A stretch of 29,743 bases of DNA from a virus, in the IMG/VR virus record IMGVR_UViG_3300005613_000306, positions 1-29,743 of that record, one strand, 5' to 3'. The notes under the pieces were generated by a model. It did no database searches, had not been told where the DNA came from, and saw only the letters and a list, made by a program, of their open reading frames with translations. Numbering within the stretch: the first letter of the stretch is position 1; every line of letters starts with the position of its first letter. A program made the position numbers and the translations under genes. This document shows positions 3,905 to 12,732 of the stretch, in pieces.

Positions 3905-5188
3905 ATGAAATTATCACTTAAACAGACATGCGCCCTCGACCTTTTGGAGGACAATGTTACAAGTGAAATACTTTTCGGAGGCGGTGCCGGTGGCGGAAAA
4001 TCGGTACTCGGTTGTTATTGGATAACAAAGAGTGCGTTAAAGTACAAAGGTACTAGGTGGTTAATCGGCAGGGCAAAGCTAAAGACCCTAAAGGAAACCA
4101 CGTTGAACACATTATTTGAAGTATTTAAGATGCAGGGCATTACCACAGCCATGTACAACTACAACCAAACGAGCGGTATAATATCCTTTAGTAATGGAAG
4201 CGAGATATACCTAAAGGACTTATTCTACTATCCATCAGACCCTAACTATGACGAACTTGGTTCGTTAGAAATAACAGGGGCGTTTATAGACGAAGCCAAT
4301 CAGCTAGTAAAGAAAGCCAAAGAGGTGGTTAAAAGCCGTATAAGGTACAAGCTGGACGACTATGGATTGATACCTAAAGTGCTGATGACCTGCAACCCGT
4401 CAAAGAACTGGATATACAAAGACTACTACAAGCCCTACACCTCAAACGAACTGCGTAAGGATTGGGCGTTCGTGCCGTCATTGGTGCAAGATAACCCCGA
4501 TATATCCAAACACTACATAGACAACCTTAACAGCATACAAGATAAAGCCATTAGGGAGCGTTTACTAGGCAATTGGGATTATGACCTTAACCCTGCAAGG
4601 CTGATGCCTTACGATGCGTGTTACAACCTATTCACCAACGACCACGTTAAGGGCGGCACTAAGTACATCACAGCGGACATAGCCCGTTTCGGAAAAGACA
4701 AGACCGTTATAATCGTATGGGACGGGTTCAAAGCTATCGAGGTGGTGGTACACAAAACCAACACAATAACCGAAGCAGCCGACAACATCAAGTCGTTAGC
4801 CAACCGCTACGGTATACCCATGAGCCAAGTGGTGTGCGATGAGGACGGTATCGGTGGGGGTGTGGTGGATATGCTAAGGTGCAAGGGCTTTATAGCCAAC
4901 AAGACCAGCAGCACATACGCCAATACCAAAGCCGAGTGCTACTTTATGCTAGCCGAAAAGGTGAACAAAGCGGAAATGCACATAAGGTGCGATGACATGG
5001 AAATGATTATCCAAGAACTTCAGGCAATCGAACGGGCGAACATAGACAAGGACACGAAACCGAGCATCAACTCAAAGGAAAGCCAAAAGCAGATATTGGG
5101 ACGCAGCCCCGATTATGCTGACGCCTTGATGATGCGTATGTACTTTGAAGTTAATTCTAACGTAATTTATGGTATATTAGCGATATGA
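3905..5188 (+). CDS. terL: Terminase large subunit (ATPase/nuclease), 427 aa
   Basis: This is the DNA packaging motor. The Walker A loop is at residues 25-33 (GGGAGGGKS), Walker B with the catalytic Glu at 125-131 (GAFIDEA), and the coupling motif at 161-165 (MTCNPS region). The RuvC-like nuclease half has acidic residues at D258 (ITADIA), D312/D314 (VVCDEDGIGGG) and D403/D406 (SPDYADALMM). Length is normal and all catalytic blocks are intact. The start at 3905 puts the Walker A at the usual distance from the N-terminus. Its stop overlaps the next ATG, and a promoter-like box lies in its last codons. Confidence 0.96.
   Translation: MKLSLKQTCALDLLEDNVTSEILFGGGAGGGKSVLGCYWITKSALKYKGTRWLIGRAKLKTLKETTLNTLFEVFKMQGITTAMYNYNQTSGIISFSNGSEIYLKDLFYYPSDPNYDELGSLEITGAFIDEANQLVKKAKEVVKSRIRYKLDDYGLIPKVLMTCNPSKNWIYKDYYKPYTSNELRKDWAFVPSLVQDNPDISKHYIDNLNSIQDKAIRERLLGNWDYDLNPARLMPYDACYNLFTNDHVKGGTKYITADIARFGKDKTVIIVWDGFKAIEVVVHKTNTITEAADNIKSLANRYGIPMSQVVCDEDGIGGGVVDMLRCKGFIANKTSSTYANTKAECYFMLAEKVNKAEMHIRCDDMEMIIQELQAIERANIDKDTKPSINSKESQKQILGRSPDYADALMMRMYFEVNSNVIYGILAI
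5173..5180 (+). promoter_or_regulatory. Possible promoter box TATATTAG with leaderless spacing
   Basis: TATATTAG (same variant as at 181-188) lies inside the 3' end of the terminase gene and is followed by CGAT and then the ATG at 5185. A 4-base gap between box and start codon is the same as at 6224, 12792 and 20990. A TTTG at 5144-5147 is 25 bases upstream, which is longer than normal. The call depends mainly on the repeated spacing. Confidence 0.4.
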
Positions 5189-7143: not shown

Positions 7144-7317
7144 ATGAAACTAGGCGAATTTAAAGAACCATTAATTAACGGAATTGTTGCGTTGTTTTGG
7201 GCAGTACTATTTTTTATTCTGACAAGCAACAAGGATATTACCCTAGCATTGTTTATTGTTGTGCATCAAATGCACTCAGTAGCAACGTACTTCCGCAATA
7301 GAATAAACAATAAGTGA
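7144..7317 (+). CDS. Small membrane protein, 57 aa
   Basis: The protein reads MKLGEFKEPLINGIVALFWA, continues with 'VLFFILTSNKDITLALFIVVHQMH' and ends 'YFRNRINNK'. Two hydrophobic stretches (about residues 12-27 and 33-41) suggest a hairpin membrane protein with a basic tail. It immediately precedes the glycosyltransferase cassette, with its TGA overlapping the GTG start at 7314. Small membrane proteins next to phage glycosyltransferases are often flippase-like or immunity proteins, but no family is recognised here. Confidence 0.6.
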   Translation: MKLGEFKEPLINGIVALFWAVLFFILTSNKDITLALFIVVHQMHSVATYFRNRINNK

Positions 7318-7988
7318 TACCTAAAATACTGTTAGGAGCACCAATAAGCCAACGCAAGGCGTATGTACTTGACGAGTGGTTAAAGTTCATTAGGACGCTT
7401 ACCTATCCTAATTTACATATCATTCTAGTAGACAACAGCCCCGACCCGAACTGGCACAAGTCAATCAAAGGTTTTGACGTTAGGTACGTACCGCCAGTAG
7501 GTAGACCTGAAAAATACATTGCCGAGTCCCAAGAGGTCATTAGAAAGTACGCCCTAGCTAACGACTTTGATTACCTATTCAGTCTTGAGTGCGATAACTT
7601 TTGCCCTGTCAACACCATTGAGTTGCTACTGGCGCACCGCAAAGACAACGTAAACGTGCCGTACTTCCTAAAGGGCGATGAGCAAACAACCATAGGCGTA
7701 CAATTAGCAGGCATCAAATACAAAGACTACAAGCGTTACGATGTTATGCCGCCCTCGTTGAACATGGACTACATGAAAGGAAAGCTAATGACAGGCGTAC
7801 CGTCAATCGGTTGCAGCTTGTTTAGTCGTAGGTTGTTGGAGTTGCAGAAGTTCAGGCACGTATCGGACCAAGTAGGCAAGTATAGCGATAGTTGGTGGCA
7901 TTGGGATAGCATACGCAACGGCATAACACCATACGTAGACACAACATTATTCAGCGAACATAAAAGGAACAGAAAGTGGAAGCAATAG
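7314..7988 (+). CDS. GT-A type glycosyltransferase, 224 aa
   Basis: The N-terminal 'KILLGAPISQRKAYVLDEWLKFI...HIILVDNSPD' is the nucleotide-sugar binding start of a GT2-like enzyme. The DxD position is at residues 90-94 (SLECD), followed by 'GVPSIGCSLFSRRLL', 'WWHWDSIRNG' and a C-terminal 'FSEHKRN' with the late His typical of GT-A enzymes. The expected role is sugar transfer from a host nucleotide sugar to an unknown acceptor. It starts with GTG in a GTGA overlap with the small membrane protein and is the first gene of a tightly overlapping cassette. Confidence 0.8.
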   Translation: MIPKILLGAPISQRKAYVLDEWLKFIRTLTYPNLHIILVDNSPDPNWHKSIKGFDVRYVPPVGRPEKYIAESQEVIRKYALANDFDYLFSLECDNFCPVNTIELLLAHRKDNVNVPYFLKGDEQTTIGVQLAGIKYKDYKRYDVMPPSLNMDYMKGKLMTGVPSIGCSLFSRRLLELQKFRHVSDQVGKYSDSWWHWDSIRNGITPYVDTTLFSEHKRNRKWKQ

Positions 7989-8401
7989 ACATTTGGAACG
8001 AAAGAGTAAAGAACGAGCAAGAGTATTTGGAAATGTACCGTAACCTTGTGGAGTGCCTTAAAAGCGAACTATCAGAGGACGTAAAGGACAGCAAGTATTG
8101 GGACAAGAAAATAAACATCCGCCAAATCGAGAACGAGATAGCATCAAAAGAAATGTACCTTAACTCGTTGTTGAACGACAAAGCCCAACAGGAAGCAATG
8201 GTGAAGTTCAAGATGCACCTAGCGAAAGAAAAGGGCAGCGACATATTGAGGGCGGCACGTAACCCGTTAATGGCACGCAGCAACAGGGCAAACGAGTTGG
8301 AGGGCATACTAAAGGAAAAGCACGAGAACGGCACGGAAAGTTGGGCGGACTGGATATGGCGTATCAACGAGGTGCTTAACAAACTGCAAGCGTTGAAATG
8401 A
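7976..8401 (+). CDS. Coiled-coil protein in the glycosyltransferase cassette, 141 aa
   Basis: No enzyme motif. Almost the whole chain is charged and helical (ENEIASKEMYLNSLLNDKAQ, AMVKFKMHLAKEKG), ending in 'ESWADWIWRINEVLNKLQALK'. It starts at GTG 7976, inside the end of the preceding gene (13-base overlap), and stops in an ATGA overlap with the next. The strict coupling suggests a partner or scaffold for the surrounding transferases; this is an inference from context only. No similar phage protein is recalled. Confidence 0.6.
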   Translation: MEAIDIWNERVKNEQEYLEMYRNLVECLKSELSEDVKDSKYWDKKINIRQIENEIASKEMYLNSLLNDKAQQEAMVKFKMHLAKEKGSDILRAARNPLMARSNRANELEGILKEKHENGTESWADWIWRINEVLNKLQALK

Positions 8402-8979
8402 TAACACTATTGCAGCCGTGGTACGTGTCCACCAACAAAGCCCGTCAAAAGGAACTTGAAATATGCTTGCATAACAACCTAGCAAACGAGCACATCACAA
8501 AGGTAGTGTTGTACTGTGAGCATGAGTGCAAGGTAGAGCACCCCAAGTTAGTCAAGGTAATAATCAACCGCAGGGCAATGTACAACGATATGCTAAGCGG
8601 ACGTGGCATAGTAGTGTTAGCCAATACGGATATTTACTTTGATGACACAATAGAGTTAGCCAAAGGCATAAAGGAAAACGAATGTTACGCCCTATCAAGA
8701 TGGGACGTTAAAGGCAATAAGATAGTTCCCTTCCACGGTACGGACACGCAAGACGTTTGGATATTCAACAACCCTAATTTGAAAGTTGGTGATTACGGAA
8801 TGGGTATGCCGGGATGTGATAACAGGATAGCCAAGGAGATACTGGACGCAGGTTATAAGATAACGAACCCTTGTATGAGCATAAAGGCATTACACCTTCA
8901 CGAAACGGGCTATCGTACCTATACCGCCAAAGATACCGTTCACGGATTATATCACTACGTTATACCTTGTTACTTATGA
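8398..8979 (+). CDS. Glycosyltransferase-like protein, 193 aa
   Basis: Conserved blocks are 'VVLANTDIYFD' (residues 72-82, NTD in the DxD position), 'YALSRWD' (97-103), 'TDTQDVWIF' (115-123), 'GMPGCDNRIAKEILDAGYKITNP' (137-158 region) and the late histidines 'ALHLHETGYRTY'. This block order is typical of a GT-A-like family found near sugar-modification genes in phages and bacteria. Length is normal. The acceptor is unknown. It is coupled to both neighbours by ATGA overlaps. Confidence 0.75.
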   Translation: MITLLQPWYVSTNKARQKELEICLHNNLANEHITKVVLYCEHECKVEHPKLVKVIINRRAMYNDMLSGRGIVVLANTDIYFDDTIELAKGIKENECYALSRWDVKGNKIVPFHGTDTQDVWIFNNPNLKVGDYGMGMPGCDNRIAKEILDAGYKITNPCMSIKALHLHETGYRTYTAKDTVHGLYHYVIPCYL

Positions 8980-9863
8980 AAGTGCTATACATATCACTAG
9001 GTAGACACCAAACCAGTCTAGAGCAAGCCCTTAGAGGTATTGCCAGTGAGTTTAAACAAATAGACTGGACAGAGAACCCGTCAACGTTAGATGCAGCTAT
9101 TAAAAGCGTTCTATTGACGTTTAGCCCCGACCTAACATTCATGCAGCTGCAACGGGAAGGGCTGGTGAAGCCCGAAACGCTGCAAATGATTAGCGGCAAA
9201 AAATACAATTGGACGGGCGATGTGCGTACACCGATACCGCAATGGTACAAGACGTTAGCCCCGTACTTTGATTTGACTTTATTCAGTAACGGGAACGATG
9301 TAGAAGAGTTTAAACGCTTGGGCTTACGTAGCGAGTTCCTAAATATAGGGTTCGAGGAAAAGGACTACAACCTAGATGGAGCAAAGATAGATAGCGGTGT
9401 GGTATTTATGGGCAACAACTACGTTAACCAGTTCCCGTTATCCAAGTTCAGAGCCGACATGGTAAAAGCGTTACCGTTTATCGAGGTATACGGTGGCAAC
9501 TGGGCAAACGCCAAAGGCGACCTTAACAACGACCCACAAAAGGAAGCCGCAATTTACAGGGGTTGTAAAATGGCTATCAACTTATCACACTTTGACTACG
9601 ACAGATATTCGAGCGACAGGATGTTACGTATAATGGCTTGCGGTGCGTTCTGTTTATCGCACCACTACAAAGGCATCGAAAAGGATTTTGAAGTAGGTGT
9701 AGACCTTGTTACATGGCGCACGTTTGACGAACTAAAGGAACTGGTACAATATTACTCAAGCCGTCCTAACGAAGCCCTAGCGATAGCCGCTAACGGTTGC
9801 GAAAAGGTATGGGAAAAACATAAATGGAGCGATAGGATAAATGATTTACTTAAACTGGCATAG
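8976..9863 (+). CDS. GT-B type glycosyltransferase (Glyco_trans_1_2-like), 295 aa
   Basis: The start MKVLYISLGRHQTSL matches a GT-B N-domain. The C-terminal half has 'MLRIMACGAFCLSHHYKGIEKDFEVGVDLVTW...ELVQYYSSRPNEALAIAANG', the donor-binding signature of PF13524/CgeB-type enzymes, and ends 'EKHKWSDRINDLLKL'. The ATG at 8976 is chosen because it gives an ATGA overlap and a normal N-terminus; extending to 8871 would add 35 residues out of the preceding gene. The 3' end overlaps the next gene by 23 bases. Confidence 0.85.
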   Translation: MKVLYISLGRHQTSLEQALRGIASEFKQIDWTENPSTLDAAIKSVLLTFSPDLTFMQLQREGLVKPETLQMISGKKYNWTGDVRTPIPQWYKTLAPYFDLTLFSNGNDVEEFKRLGLRSEFLNIGFEEKDYNLDGAKIDSGVVFMGNNYVNQFPLSKFRADMVKALPFIEVYGGNWANAKGDLNNDPQKEAAIYRGCKMAINLSHFDYDRYSSDRMLRIMACGAFCLSHHYKGIEKDFEVGVDLVTWRTFDELKELVQYYSSRPNEALAIAANGCEKVWEKHKWSDRINDLLKLA

Positions 9864-10557
9864 GTCTGCAAACTTTGGCGACAGGCTTAGCAAGATAATA
9901 GCCGAATACCTATCTAAAGATACGGTAGTCACCTACAATGGCGAGCACTTGGAACATTATATGCTCGTAGGTAGTATAGCAAACCACGCCAATGAGAACA
10001 CAATCATTTGGGGTGCAGGTGTAGCCAACACAAACGACTACATAACCAAGGTAAAAGCCGTGCCAATGATAAGAGGCTTGTTGAGCAAAGAGATAGCGGA
10101 GCGCAGCGGTAACGTAGTGGGTAAGGTGGGCGACCCCGTTTTGCTCATGCCACAGATTTACAAGCCCAAAGTAACCAAAAAATACAAGCTAGGTATAATT
10201 CCGCACGTTGTGGAATATCTAGGTGTAGCCACTAGGTACATGGAGCATGACGACTATCTTGTTATCGACCTATGTAAGCACCCTTACGAAGTAATTAATG
10301 ACATATTGTCATGCGAGAAAACCATTAGCAGTAGCTTACATGGCATAATTGCCTCACACGCTTACGGAGTGCCTTGCGAGTGGGTTAGGTTCTCGAATAA
10401 AATAGGTGGTGATGGTTTCAAATATTTTGATTATTTTAGCAGCGTTGGTATACCGATGCACGATGTGATAGATTTGGAACACTCGCACCAATATATTGAG
10501 ATACCTAATTACGAAATAAAACATAACCTAACATTAAAAGACAATCCATTCTTATGA
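9841..10557 (+). CDS. Polysaccharide pyruvyl transferase family protein, 238 aa
   Basis: The protein shows the family's blocks in order: 'ANFGDRLSK' (residues 10-18), 'IIWGAGVAN', 'VGDPVLLMP', 'KLGIIPHVVEY' and 'SSSLHGIIASHAYGVPCEW'. PF04230 enzymes transfer pyruvate from phosphoenolpyruvate to sugar hydroxyls of exopolysaccharides, cell-wall polymers or N-glycans, adding a negative charge. At 238 residues it is shorter than many members (about 300 or more), but the core is complete. It overlaps the upstream glycosyltransferase by 23 bases and the downstream methyltransferase by 4, so it belongs to the same cassette. A pyruvyl transferase in a phage is unusual. Confidence 0.88.
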   Translation: MIYLNWHRSANFGDRLSKIIAEYLSKDTVVTYNGEHLEHYMLVGSIANHANENTIIWGAGVANTNDYITKVKAVPMIRGLLSKEIAERSGNVVGKVGDPVLLMPQIYKPKVTKKYKLGIIPHVVEYLGVATRYMEHDDYLVIDLCKHPYEVINDILSCEKTISSSLHGIIASHAYGVPCEWVRFSNKIGGDGFKYFDYFSSVGIPMHDVIDLEHSHQYIEIPNYEIKHNLTLKDNPFL

Positions 10558-11105
10558 GCGACGCATTTAACAGGGATAACCATTTACATGAGAAGTTCAA
10601 GCAACTGATTGAAGATAACGCTATCGAAGTAGTTATCGAAACGGGTACTTATCATGGTAGGAGCACACGGGCTTTTGCTGATATGGGCGTATTGGTTCAC
10701 AGTGTGGACAGCAACTCAAGTTACCTAGCCGAAGCAAGGAACTACATAGGTAATATGGCAAACGTAATGTTGCACCACGGTAACAGCCCCGACTTTCTAA
10801 GGGTTATACTTCCGACATTGAAAGACAAGAAGGTGCTTATGTTCTTGGATGCGCATTGGGAGCACCATTGCCCGTTGATTGACGAACTGGAAATAATAGC
10901 CAAAAGCGGTGTAAAGCCGATTATCGCAATCCACGATTTCAAAGTACCTGACAAGGACTTTGGTTTCGATGTGTACCACGGTCAGCCGTTCGAGTGGTCG
11001 TGGATTGAGCCGAGCGTTAAAAAGATTTACGATAAATTCACCCATTACTACAACACCGAAGCCGCAGGCGCAAAGCGTGGAGTAGTATTCATAGAACCTA
11101 AATAA
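10554..11105 (+). CDS. SAM-dependent methyltransferase, 183 aa
   Basis: Motif I is 'VVIETGTYHGRSTRAFAD' (residues 27-43), the acidic ribose-binding residue is Asp52 ('VHSVDSNSSY'), and 'MFLDAHWEHHCPLIDEL' (96-112) is a hallmark of class I methyltransferases that act on sugars or lipids in glycan clusters. The rest of the fold ('IIAIHDFKVPD') is present, and the length is normal for a minimal enzyme. The likely acceptor is a sugar made by the neighbouring enzymes, but this is inferred from context. Confidence 0.8.
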   Translation: MSDAFNRDNHLHEKFKQLIEDNAIEVVIETGTYHGRSTRAFADMGVLVHSVDSNSSYLAEARNYIGNMANVMLHHGNSPDFLRVILPTLKDKKVLMFLDAHWEHHCPLIDELEIIAKSGVKPIIAIHDFKVPDKDFGFDVYHGQPFEWSWIEPSVKKIYDKFTHYYNTEAAGAKRGVVFIEPK

Positions 11106-11106
11106 C

Positions 11107-11937
11107 ATGGACACAAAACAATTCTTCAAGAACTTTCCCGTAATGCCCAAAAAGGTGTATTCGCAAACAGGCGAAGAGGGAATACTGGAATACATTTTTA
11201 GCCACTTCCCACCCAAAGGCAAATACCTAGTCGATTTCGGGGCAGGTGACGGTGTTAATTTAAGCAACTCACAACTACTATTGCAAAACGGCTGGCAAGG
11301 TCTTAGGATGGACGGTAAGGCCGCTGGTGATGTAAAACAGGAATACATCACAGCCGAAAACATCGTACCGTTATTCAAAAAATACCAAGTTCCGCAAACA
11401 TTCGACCTATTGAGCATCGATATGGATGGTAACGACTATTGGGTATTGAAAGAAATACTAAAGGTTTACAAGCCGTTGGTTATCGTAGCCGAGATAAACG
11501 GGTGCTTAGAGCCATACCAAAGCGTAGCGATGAAGTACAACCCTACGCACGTACATGAGGGCAACGACTATTATGGCGCAAGTTTCCAAGCGTTCAAAGA
11601 ACTATGCAAGGATTATGTAGTGGTGCACAACCGCCATAACCTTAACATCTTTTTGGTGCACAAGGATTTGATAGGCAACATCGAAAGCCCCGTTACTTGT
11701 ATCAGAGACCAGTACCACCACCACAGCCCTAACCGTGAGTGGGTGGCTAACCCTATTGAGGTTGAAGTTGTTGGCGTGGAGTATGACGAAGTAGCACCCG
11801 ATGGCACGGAGTTTATACCGTTTGAGGGCAGCGATATTGAAGCGAAAGTGAACGCTTATAAGGAGCGTTTCCCAGCAGATGATGAGCAACCAGTACCAGC
11901 ACCGAAAAGACGTGGCAGACCTAAAAAAAGCAAATGA
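11107..11937 (+). CDS. FkbM-like methyltransferase with AT-hook-like tail, 276 aa
   Basis: Residues 18-50 ('YSQTGEEGILEYIF', 'YLVDFGAGDG') and 104-130 ('SIDMDGNDYWVLK... VIVAEIN') follow the FkbM-type O-methyltransferase layout. The C-terminal 30 residues are Pro- and Lys-rich and end 'PAPKRRGRPKKSK'. RGRP flanked by Lys/Arg is an AT-hook core, which would bind AT-rich DNA or simply act as a basic tether. The tail is not part of the methyltransferase fold. It starts 1 base after the preceding stop and overlaps the next gene by 4 bases. Confidence 0.78.
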   Translation: MDTKQFFKNFPVMPKKVYSQTGEEGILEYIFSHFPPKGKYLVDFGAGDGVNLSNSQLLLQNGWQGLRMDGKAAGDVKQEYITAENIVPLFKKYQVPQTFDLLSIDMDGNDYWVLKEILKVYKPLVIVAEINGCLEPYQSVAMKYNPTHVHEGNDYYGASFQAFKELCKDYVVVHNRHNLNIFLVHKDLIGNIESPVTCIRDQYHHHSPNREWVANPIEVEVVGVEYDEVAPDGTEFIPFEGSDIEAKVNAYKERFPADDEQPVPAPKRRGRPKKSK

Positions 11938-12668
11938 AATTAGCGGCAGTATACAACGTATGGGACGGATTAGAGCACTTGGATAAGTCCATAAGCCTAA
12001 TATACCCTTTTGTCTACCATGTTATTCTAGTTTGGCAGGACGTGAGCAACTTTGGTGAGCACAACCCCGACACGGCAACAATGGTGCAAGTGTTGGCTAC
12101 TAAATACCCAAAGGTAAAGCACCTACACTATTCACCTGATGTAAGCAAGGGCGGTACAAAGAACGAAGCCGACAAGCGTTTCAAAGGCACTATGCTGGCA
12201 AAGGAATTAGGGTCTACCCATTTCCTGCATATCGACACGGACGAATATTACGTACCTAGCGACTTTGAAAAGGGCAAGGCGTTTGTTTTAGAGCACAACT
12301 TGGACACAAGCTATTGCAGGTTGGTTACGTATTTCAAACAACCTAATTACAGGCTTGAGCCGTTGGAAAGTTACTACGTACCGTTTATTTGTAAAATCAC
12401 ATCTTGCAATATCGGTGGATTTAGGGTGTATGTAGACCCGACACGTGGCACAAGTCCAGTAGGGCGTTGCAAAGAAGTTCCGATACTAATGCACCACATG
12501 AGTTATGTTAGAAATGACATGGCTATGAAGCTACGCAACAGCAGCGCACGGGTTAACATCAGGAACATGGAGCAGCGGCTAAAAGAAATTAACGATTGGC
12601 AGTTAGGGCAACCGCACCCGTTTATGGCAGGGTTCAATATAATCGAAACTGAAAACTTGTTTGGTTGA
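11934..12668 (+). CDS. GT-A type glycosyltransferase, 244 aa
   Basis: 'AAVYNVWDGLEHLDKSISLIYPFVYHVILVWQD' is a GT2-like N-terminus, and 'HFLHIDTDEYYVPSDF' (residues 97-112) carries the metal-binding DxD (D101-T-D103). The C-terminal half has 'HHMSYVRNDMAMKLRNSSA', a feature of enzymes that use a late His-His pair. It is the last gene of the cassette and is followed by a strong terminator. The acceptor is unknown. Confidence 0.8.
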   Translation: MKLAAVYNVWDGLEHLDKSISLIYPFVYHVILVWQDVSNFGEHNPDTATMVQVLATKYPKVKHLHYSPDVSKGGTKNEADKRFKGTMLAKELGSTHFLHIDTDEYYVPSDFEKGKAFVLEHNLDTSYCRLVTYFKQPNYRLEPLESYYVPFICKITSCNIGGFRVYVDPTRGTSPVGRCKEVPILMHHMSYVRNDMAMKLRNSSARVNIRNMEQRLKEINDWQLGQPHPFMAGFNIIETENLFG

Positions 12669-12703: not shown

Positions 12704-12732
12704 AAGCCCAACCCCGTAAGGTTGGGTTTTTT
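12704..12732 (+). terminator. Intrinsic terminator after the glycosylation cassette
   Basis: CCCAACC (12707-12713) pairs perfectly with GGTTGGG (12720-12726) around a 6-base loop and is followed by six T (12727-12732). It closes the cassette and insulates it from the tail module that starts 70 bases later. Confidence 0.9.

Follow-up and report, generated by a model that had tools for sequence, protein, structure and literature searches.

A phage-borne glycan cassette with constant ends and an exchangeable core

Mycobacteriophages encode their own glycosyltransferases, and glycans on the capsid and tail tube shield the particle (Freeman et al. 2023, cited in PMC12619734). In Lak megaphages, a pyruvyltransferase-like protein also contains a glycosyltransferase domain (PMC8346664). 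A pyruvyl transferase is also annotated in the Cobetia phage Carin-5. Here we describe a cassette of eight genes, g1 to g8, in IMG/VR record IMGVR_UViG_3300005613_000306 from a tailed phage; the window analysed is the complete record of 29,743 bases, classed as linear and possibly a fragment. The eight open reading frames (ORFs) all lie on the + strand, each overlapping or almost abutting its neighbour, at 7314-12668, where an original prediction made from the letters alone had placed them. The cassette is a swappable locus with constant ends and an exchangeable core. This allelic swapping, the main point of the present analysis, had escaped the original prediction, as had the add-on character of the pyruvyl transferase gene g5, which is absent from the nearest cassette relative, L009. 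We regard a phage-borne exchangeable glycan cassette of soluble enzymes, with a virion protein as predicted acceptor, as the probable reading of the locus.

Exchange of cores among related phages

Among the other IMG/VR records of this phage group, seven contain g1 at 70-72% amino acid identity (two of them, L010 and L011, are 99.98% identical to each other), and six contain g8, at 80-85%. The genes between these borders differ in kind. A type A core is made up of g3, g4, g5, g6 and g7 in the window and of g3, g4, g6 and g7 in L009, whereas the type B core of L010/L011, L012, L014 and L015 consists of a small ORF, a pair of GT2 enzymes, an FkbM and a second methyltransferase, and a protein that matches no Pfam family. 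L013 has a further core variant in a record that ends early, and many ORFs of L015 are frameshifted, probably by sequencing errors.

Comparisons at the DNA level place the borders of the exchanged segment. L009 and L012 are 92% and 87% identical up to the stop codon of g2 (L009 base 11133), homology is absent for the following 2.8 kb, and identity of 92% restarts at L009 base 13936, within the final codons of the penultimate methyltransferase; over both homologous segments identity ranges from 87 to 93%. The window and L015 have related flanks and unrelated cores, with DNA homology restarting at 11792 in the g7 tail; 48 amino acids of this tail are 87.5% identical in L003, where the preceding methyltransferase domain differs. 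Because the flanks of the window are closer to those of L015 while its core is common to L009 (g3 is 88% identical between the two), cores move between backbones. In three relatives the capsid, portal, protease and neighbouring proteins are 95-99% identical (97-99% for the head proteins compared), and one of these carries the enzyme set of the window minus the pyruvyl transferase while the other two carry unrelated glycosyltransferases and methyltransferases; besides the core, only the tape measure, genes of the tail-fibre region and g2 vary among the three. The pattern is the one by which capsule and O-antigen loci are recognised, constant flanks around a non-homologous core. An ERF-type recombinase encoded in a relative of the group could perform the swapping.

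Two further observations concern the borders. The g2 product diverges far more quickly than those of the adjacent genes, with 30-37% identity where g1 has 71%, and 67-86% between relatives whose g1 is 97% identical; g2 may be an acceptor or adaptor. At the other end, L010 (15583-19499) and L011 carry an IS1595-family transposase and a restriction-modification pair, an N6 methylase and a specificity-like protein, between g8 and the tail genes, in flanks 94% identical to L012, which is without the insert.

Enzyme families and the recurrent core module

Family support for the eight genes is graded (Table 1). Scores over the curated Pfam cut-offs were obtained for g4 with PF13524 (75.6 bits, cut-off 25) and for g5 with PF04230 (48.9 bits, cut-off 25.3), so the pyruvyl transferase was correctly named in the original prediction. 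Of the four glycosyltransferases it proposed, g4 therefore stands on Pfam and g8 on its fold (the best Foldseek matches are GtrB and a Bacteroides GT2); g1 falls below the cut-off and g3 is without a Pfam match. The two proposed methyltransferases, g6 (20.9 bits against 26.3 for Methyltransf_24) and g7 (18.8 against 22.7 for FkbM), also fall short, although the type B counterpart of g7 in L012 passes at 51.2. The enzyme calls for g6, g7, g1, g8 and g3 are accordingly plausible and weaker than those for g4 and g5. Since g3 belongs to a large viral family and is fused to g4 in other phages, it is likely a sugar enzyme; its structure model was too poor for use. A PHROGs profile search gave no useful matches for the cassette genes, and searches of PDB sequences with g1 and g4 to g8 were empty or returned chance matches only. 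Amino acid identities of 69-88% at near-saturated silent sites indicate purifying selection on the cassette genes, and in the type B genes silent differences outnumber replacement differences at least fivefold.

Table 1. Features of the cassette and its borders in the window
Feature	Coordinates	Strand	Support
Terminase large subunit (upstream border of region)	3905..5188	+	PHROG terminase 7e-33; Pfam Terminase_3 2e-10
g1, constant 5' border, GT2-like glycosyltransferase	7314..7988	+	Pfam GT2 0.03, below cut-off
g2, coiled-coil-like, constant position, fast-evolving	7976..8401	+	No usable Pfam match
g3, variable core, probable glycosyltransferase	8398..8979	+	No Pfam match; fused to g4 in other phages
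g4, variable core, PF13524 glycosyltransferase (mechanical ORF begins at 8871; ATG at 8976 fits as start)	8976..9863	+	Pfam E 5e-21, over cut-off
g5, polysaccharide pyruvyl transferase, single-gene add-on	9841..10557	+	PF04230 E 1e-12, over cut-off
g6, variable core, plausible class I methyltransferase, Methyltransf_24-like	10554..11105	+	Pfam 7e-4, below cut-off
g7 catalytic part, variable core, FkbM-like methyltransferase (whole ORF 11107-11937)	11107..11793	+	Pfam FkbM 2e-3, below cut-off
g7 C-terminal tail (...KRRGRPKKSK), constant 3' border	11792..11937	+	Protein and DNA homology across cores
g8, constant 3' border, GT-A fold glycosyltransferase	11934..12668	+	Confident model part, residues 1-100; Foldseek; no usable Pfam match
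Intrinsic terminator-like hairpin, closes cassette	12704..12729	+	10-bp stem, T-rich tail

The pyruvyl transferase gene is a single-gene add-on. None of the seven relatives of the group has it, and in L009 g4 is followed directly by g6, a clean absence. The protein keeps the branch motifs NxGD, RG, GDP and SSLHG. Contacts of Pvg1p with phosphoenolpyruvate include R337, L338 and H339 (PMC6801904); compared at the sequence level with the SSLHG motif, the leucine and histidine are kept and the arginine is replaced by serine throughout the g5 branch. A scan of viral contigs with a single pyruvyl transferase sequence returned nothing, whereas an alignment-based search found the branch in at least 307 viral contigs, so we reject the idea that the gene is unique to this phage. 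The earlier claim that no phage with such a combination is known is likewise not supported, given these contigs, the Lak protein, Carin-5 and the g3-g4-g5-g6 neighbourhood in other phages. Fresh acquisition of the cassette from a host capsule cluster is unsupported: g5 has matches in only 7 of 393 Bacteroidales genomes, at no more than 40% identity.

Alignment-based searches recovered g3 in at least 193 viral contigs and g4 in 66, and the favoured reading would give a function to these large unannotated families as well as to that of g5. Of 56 dereplicated viral loci with g3, 41 have g4 no more than 6 kb away, and the two are fused into one protein in L131/L255, L133/L212, L213 and L219. The gene order of the window recurs in L131 as [g3+g4]-g5-g6, answering a search that the original prediction had suggested; other arrangements are [g3+g4]-g7-g6-x-g5 in L133, g3-x-g4-g6-g5 in L148 and g3-g4-g7-g6 in L228 and L261. 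Thus g6 adjoins g5, g4 or g7 in other phages, and g7 adjoins g4 or g6 in L133, L228 and L261. Homologues of g1, g3, g4, g5 and g6 also occur on G038:C48, a contig of 109 kb from a Bacteroidales genome whose own nature is uncertain; across the 295-393 genomes searched, the best matches to g1, g4 and g5 all lie on this contig. This contig (L113, L114, L118-L121) further encodes proteins of 1457 and 1761 amino acids and an ATPase-like ORF, two of these large or ATPase-like proteins having no match in the phage collection; it is possibly an unknown virus or plasmid.

This linkage, fusion and recurrence in other viruses and in G038:C48 indicate that the enzymes function as one set and travel among viruses and related elements; the core is an old, widespread viral module. 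The same evidence, with the recurrence of g5, g6 and g7 beside g3-g4 in unrelated viruses and the purifying selection, speaks against a mixed-purpose island, that is, a recombination hotspot gathering unrelated sugar enzymes that make no single product. We give very little credence to such an island, even though the pyruvyl transferase comes and goes alone and one relative has the IS1595 element and restriction-modification genes right after g8. That the locus is a glycan-modifying cassette, as originally predicted, is supported; the recurrence in unrelated viruses and the selection on its genes speak against a chance grouping.

Position among virion genes and the predicted acceptor

In the window the cassette has the terminase upstream, tail genes downstream and head genes further on, in agreement with the virion gene region to which it had been assigned. 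Among 148 ORFs flanking the module, the commonest matches are to portal, terminase, head maturation protease, head morphogenesis and virion structural proteins, where one protein may match several families and the count was made without a random-position control. The order major capsid protein (MCP)-x-g3-g4 is found in seven dereplicated contigs, with ClpP upstream in six and the portal on the far side in five, and these MCPs belong to the MCP family of the window (7e-22 for L222). In L131 the cassette is followed by a GNAT-like ORF and then by genes for a head-tail adaptor and tail completion. The module has thus come to lie at different sites within the virion gene clusters of different phages.

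All cassette proteins, those of the window and of a type B example alike, are without membrane segments, the highest 19-residue hydropathy in the cassette being 1.25, and neither a family match nor a membrane protein was found among the cassette genes for an initiating transferase, flippase, or polymerase/exporter. Because the proteins are soluble and the module is located among virion genes, a virion protein is the best-fitting cytosolic acceptor. In the mechanism we favour, the soluble glycosyltransferases g1, g3, g4 and g8 would build a short glycan in the cytosol from host sugar nucleotides, g6 and g7 would then O-methylate it, and g5, in this phage, would cap it with a pyruvate ketal from host phosphoenolpyruvate. 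Supply of the donors by the host, as originally proposed, is consistent with a cassette that contains no sugar-nucleotide genes. The acceptor would most likely be a virion protein, of capsid or tail, that is synthesised concurrently. The constant borders (g1-g2, and the g7 tail with g8) would let homologous recombination, perhaps by ERF, swap the core, and near-identical virions would thereby carry different coats.

Several observations weigh against a virion acceptor. The copy in L228 lies among replication-type genes, and the homologues on G038:C48 are scattered, away from virion genes. In the window, a terminator stands between the cassette and the tail genes, and no promoter was found for the cassette. 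The strong terminator described earlier corresponds to the best terminator-like site of the region, directly after g8, but such sites are not in excess there (8 observed against 10.3 expected from shuffles). Finally, the AT-hook-like g7 tail would suit a DNA target. This tail (11900-11937, KRGRP) has a similar counterpart on a small protein near the portal of another phage (L280:9501-9830); it may possibly be the remnant of a virion protein.

The tail bears on the proposal that the enzymes hypermodify phage DNA with glycans and so evade restriction. Phage glycosyltransferases can modify DNA (PMC12619734), and a Mom-type DNA modification gene is present in the relative G004. We nevertheless consider the proposal highly improbable, since PF04230 and FkbM are annotated as glycan families and no thymidylate synthase (ThyA) homologue that could supply a modified acceptor base was found in these possibly partial genomes, with positive controls; a search for Tet/JBP in the same genomes also gave no match, a weak negative because its control was silent. 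The Mom-type gene itself (PF25680, E 3.6e-44) lies at L096:13282-14085, just upstream of the terminase, and has no recognisable copy in the window.

The original prediction left decoration of the virion and remodelling of the host envelope side by side, and the latter is now the less favoured. On that account the cassette would act on a host surface glycan, for example cytosolic lipid-linked O-antigen or capsule repeat units, to block superinfection or the sticking of virions to debris, and cassette types would track host glycan types. We judge this unlikely: the cassette encodes soluble proteins throughout, with neither a flippase nor a glycosyltransferase of the membrane-anchored or lipid-carrier kind, and the module sits among virion genes, head genes included, in unrelated phages. 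Moreover, no integrase was found among the best 25 of 30 families listed in two near-full relatives (G001 and G004), so there is probably no lysogen to protect. It does accommodate the characterised bacterial pyruvyl transferases WcfO and CsaB, which act on lipid-linked sugars (PMC6801904), exchange of the core between constant ends would equally suit host glycans that change, and the cassette would draw on host pools in this case too.

If virion proteins are the acceptor, exchange of one gene block could change the surface chemistry of the particle, as bacteria change capsule type, which would influence immune clearance, mucus adhesion and receptor use. More tentatively, the cassettes could define glycan serotypes, in which a capsule-locus-like cassette swapped between near-identical phages gives different sugar coats that are selected by antibodies, mucus or host receptors.

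The host is likely one of the Bacteroidota (gut-type bacteria), judging from the terminase matches and the genes in common with distant prophages. The window terminase is 49% identical to that of Flavobacterium phage 11b and about 40% to that of Bacteroides phage BS-TP3; its best genomic match is in Arachidicoccus (55% identity), the genome scan having returned only distant relatives in Bacteroidota. The tape measure, ClpP-type protease and capsid genes are common to the window and distant prophages in Rikenellaceae, Phocaeicola, Prevotellaceae and Bacteroides. A search of bacterial genome contigs with g1 gave no match, and hence no prophage or host with a close copy is present there. Within the phage group, different types of terminase large subunit occupy the equivalent position (3905-5188 in the window, L096:14513-15712 and L100:15276-16475), a second mosaic swap. 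Two relatives have a DnaB helicase with an intein/LAGLIDADG insertion (L096:5780-8128 and L002:4945-7365), while the 449-amino-acid DnaB of G001 is uninterrupted.

Comparison with described systems

A non-exhaustive search of the open-access literature turned up no earlier account of exchangeable cores between constant ends in a phage glycan cassette. As in mycobacteriophage virion glycosylation, the glycosyltransferases are phage-encoded; hosts and enzymes are different, the present cassette adds methyltransferases, a pyruvyl transferase and a core that can be swapped, and its glycan is a predicted one. The Lak protein resembles g5 in having a PF04230 domain of the same branch with a glycosyltransferase domain alongside, in a phage of Bacteroidota, but it is a two-domain protein in genomes of about 540 kb for which no allelic cassette is described. 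In the huge phage LR756500 a sugar operon places glycosyltransferase, methyltransferase and pyruvyl transferase genes side by side, and differs in an extra sulfotransferase and KdsA/KdsB/KdsD-like genes; the record is unannotated and the operon was assigned by reading its ORFs and from one Pfam match. It lies at L102:70-8310, and the Kds-like ORFs would let that phage make its own CMP-Kdo. Prophage gtr serotype-conversion cassettes also consist of phage genes that alter a glycan, with an exchangeable specificity gene, but need the membrane proteins GtrA, GtrB and Gtr(type), none of which is in this cassette. Bacterial capsule and O-antigen loci (cps, rfb) share the architecture, in which constant flanks enclose a core of glycosyltransferase and modifying-enzyme genes that is interchangeable and non-homologous; the present locus differs in lying in a phage among virion genes, and no genes for a polymerase, a flippase, an initiating transferase or sugar-nucleotide synthesis were found in it. 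Phage virion glycosylation and phage pyruvyltransferase-like proteins were thus already known, whereas a phage cassette with constant ends and an exchangeable core is apparently new.

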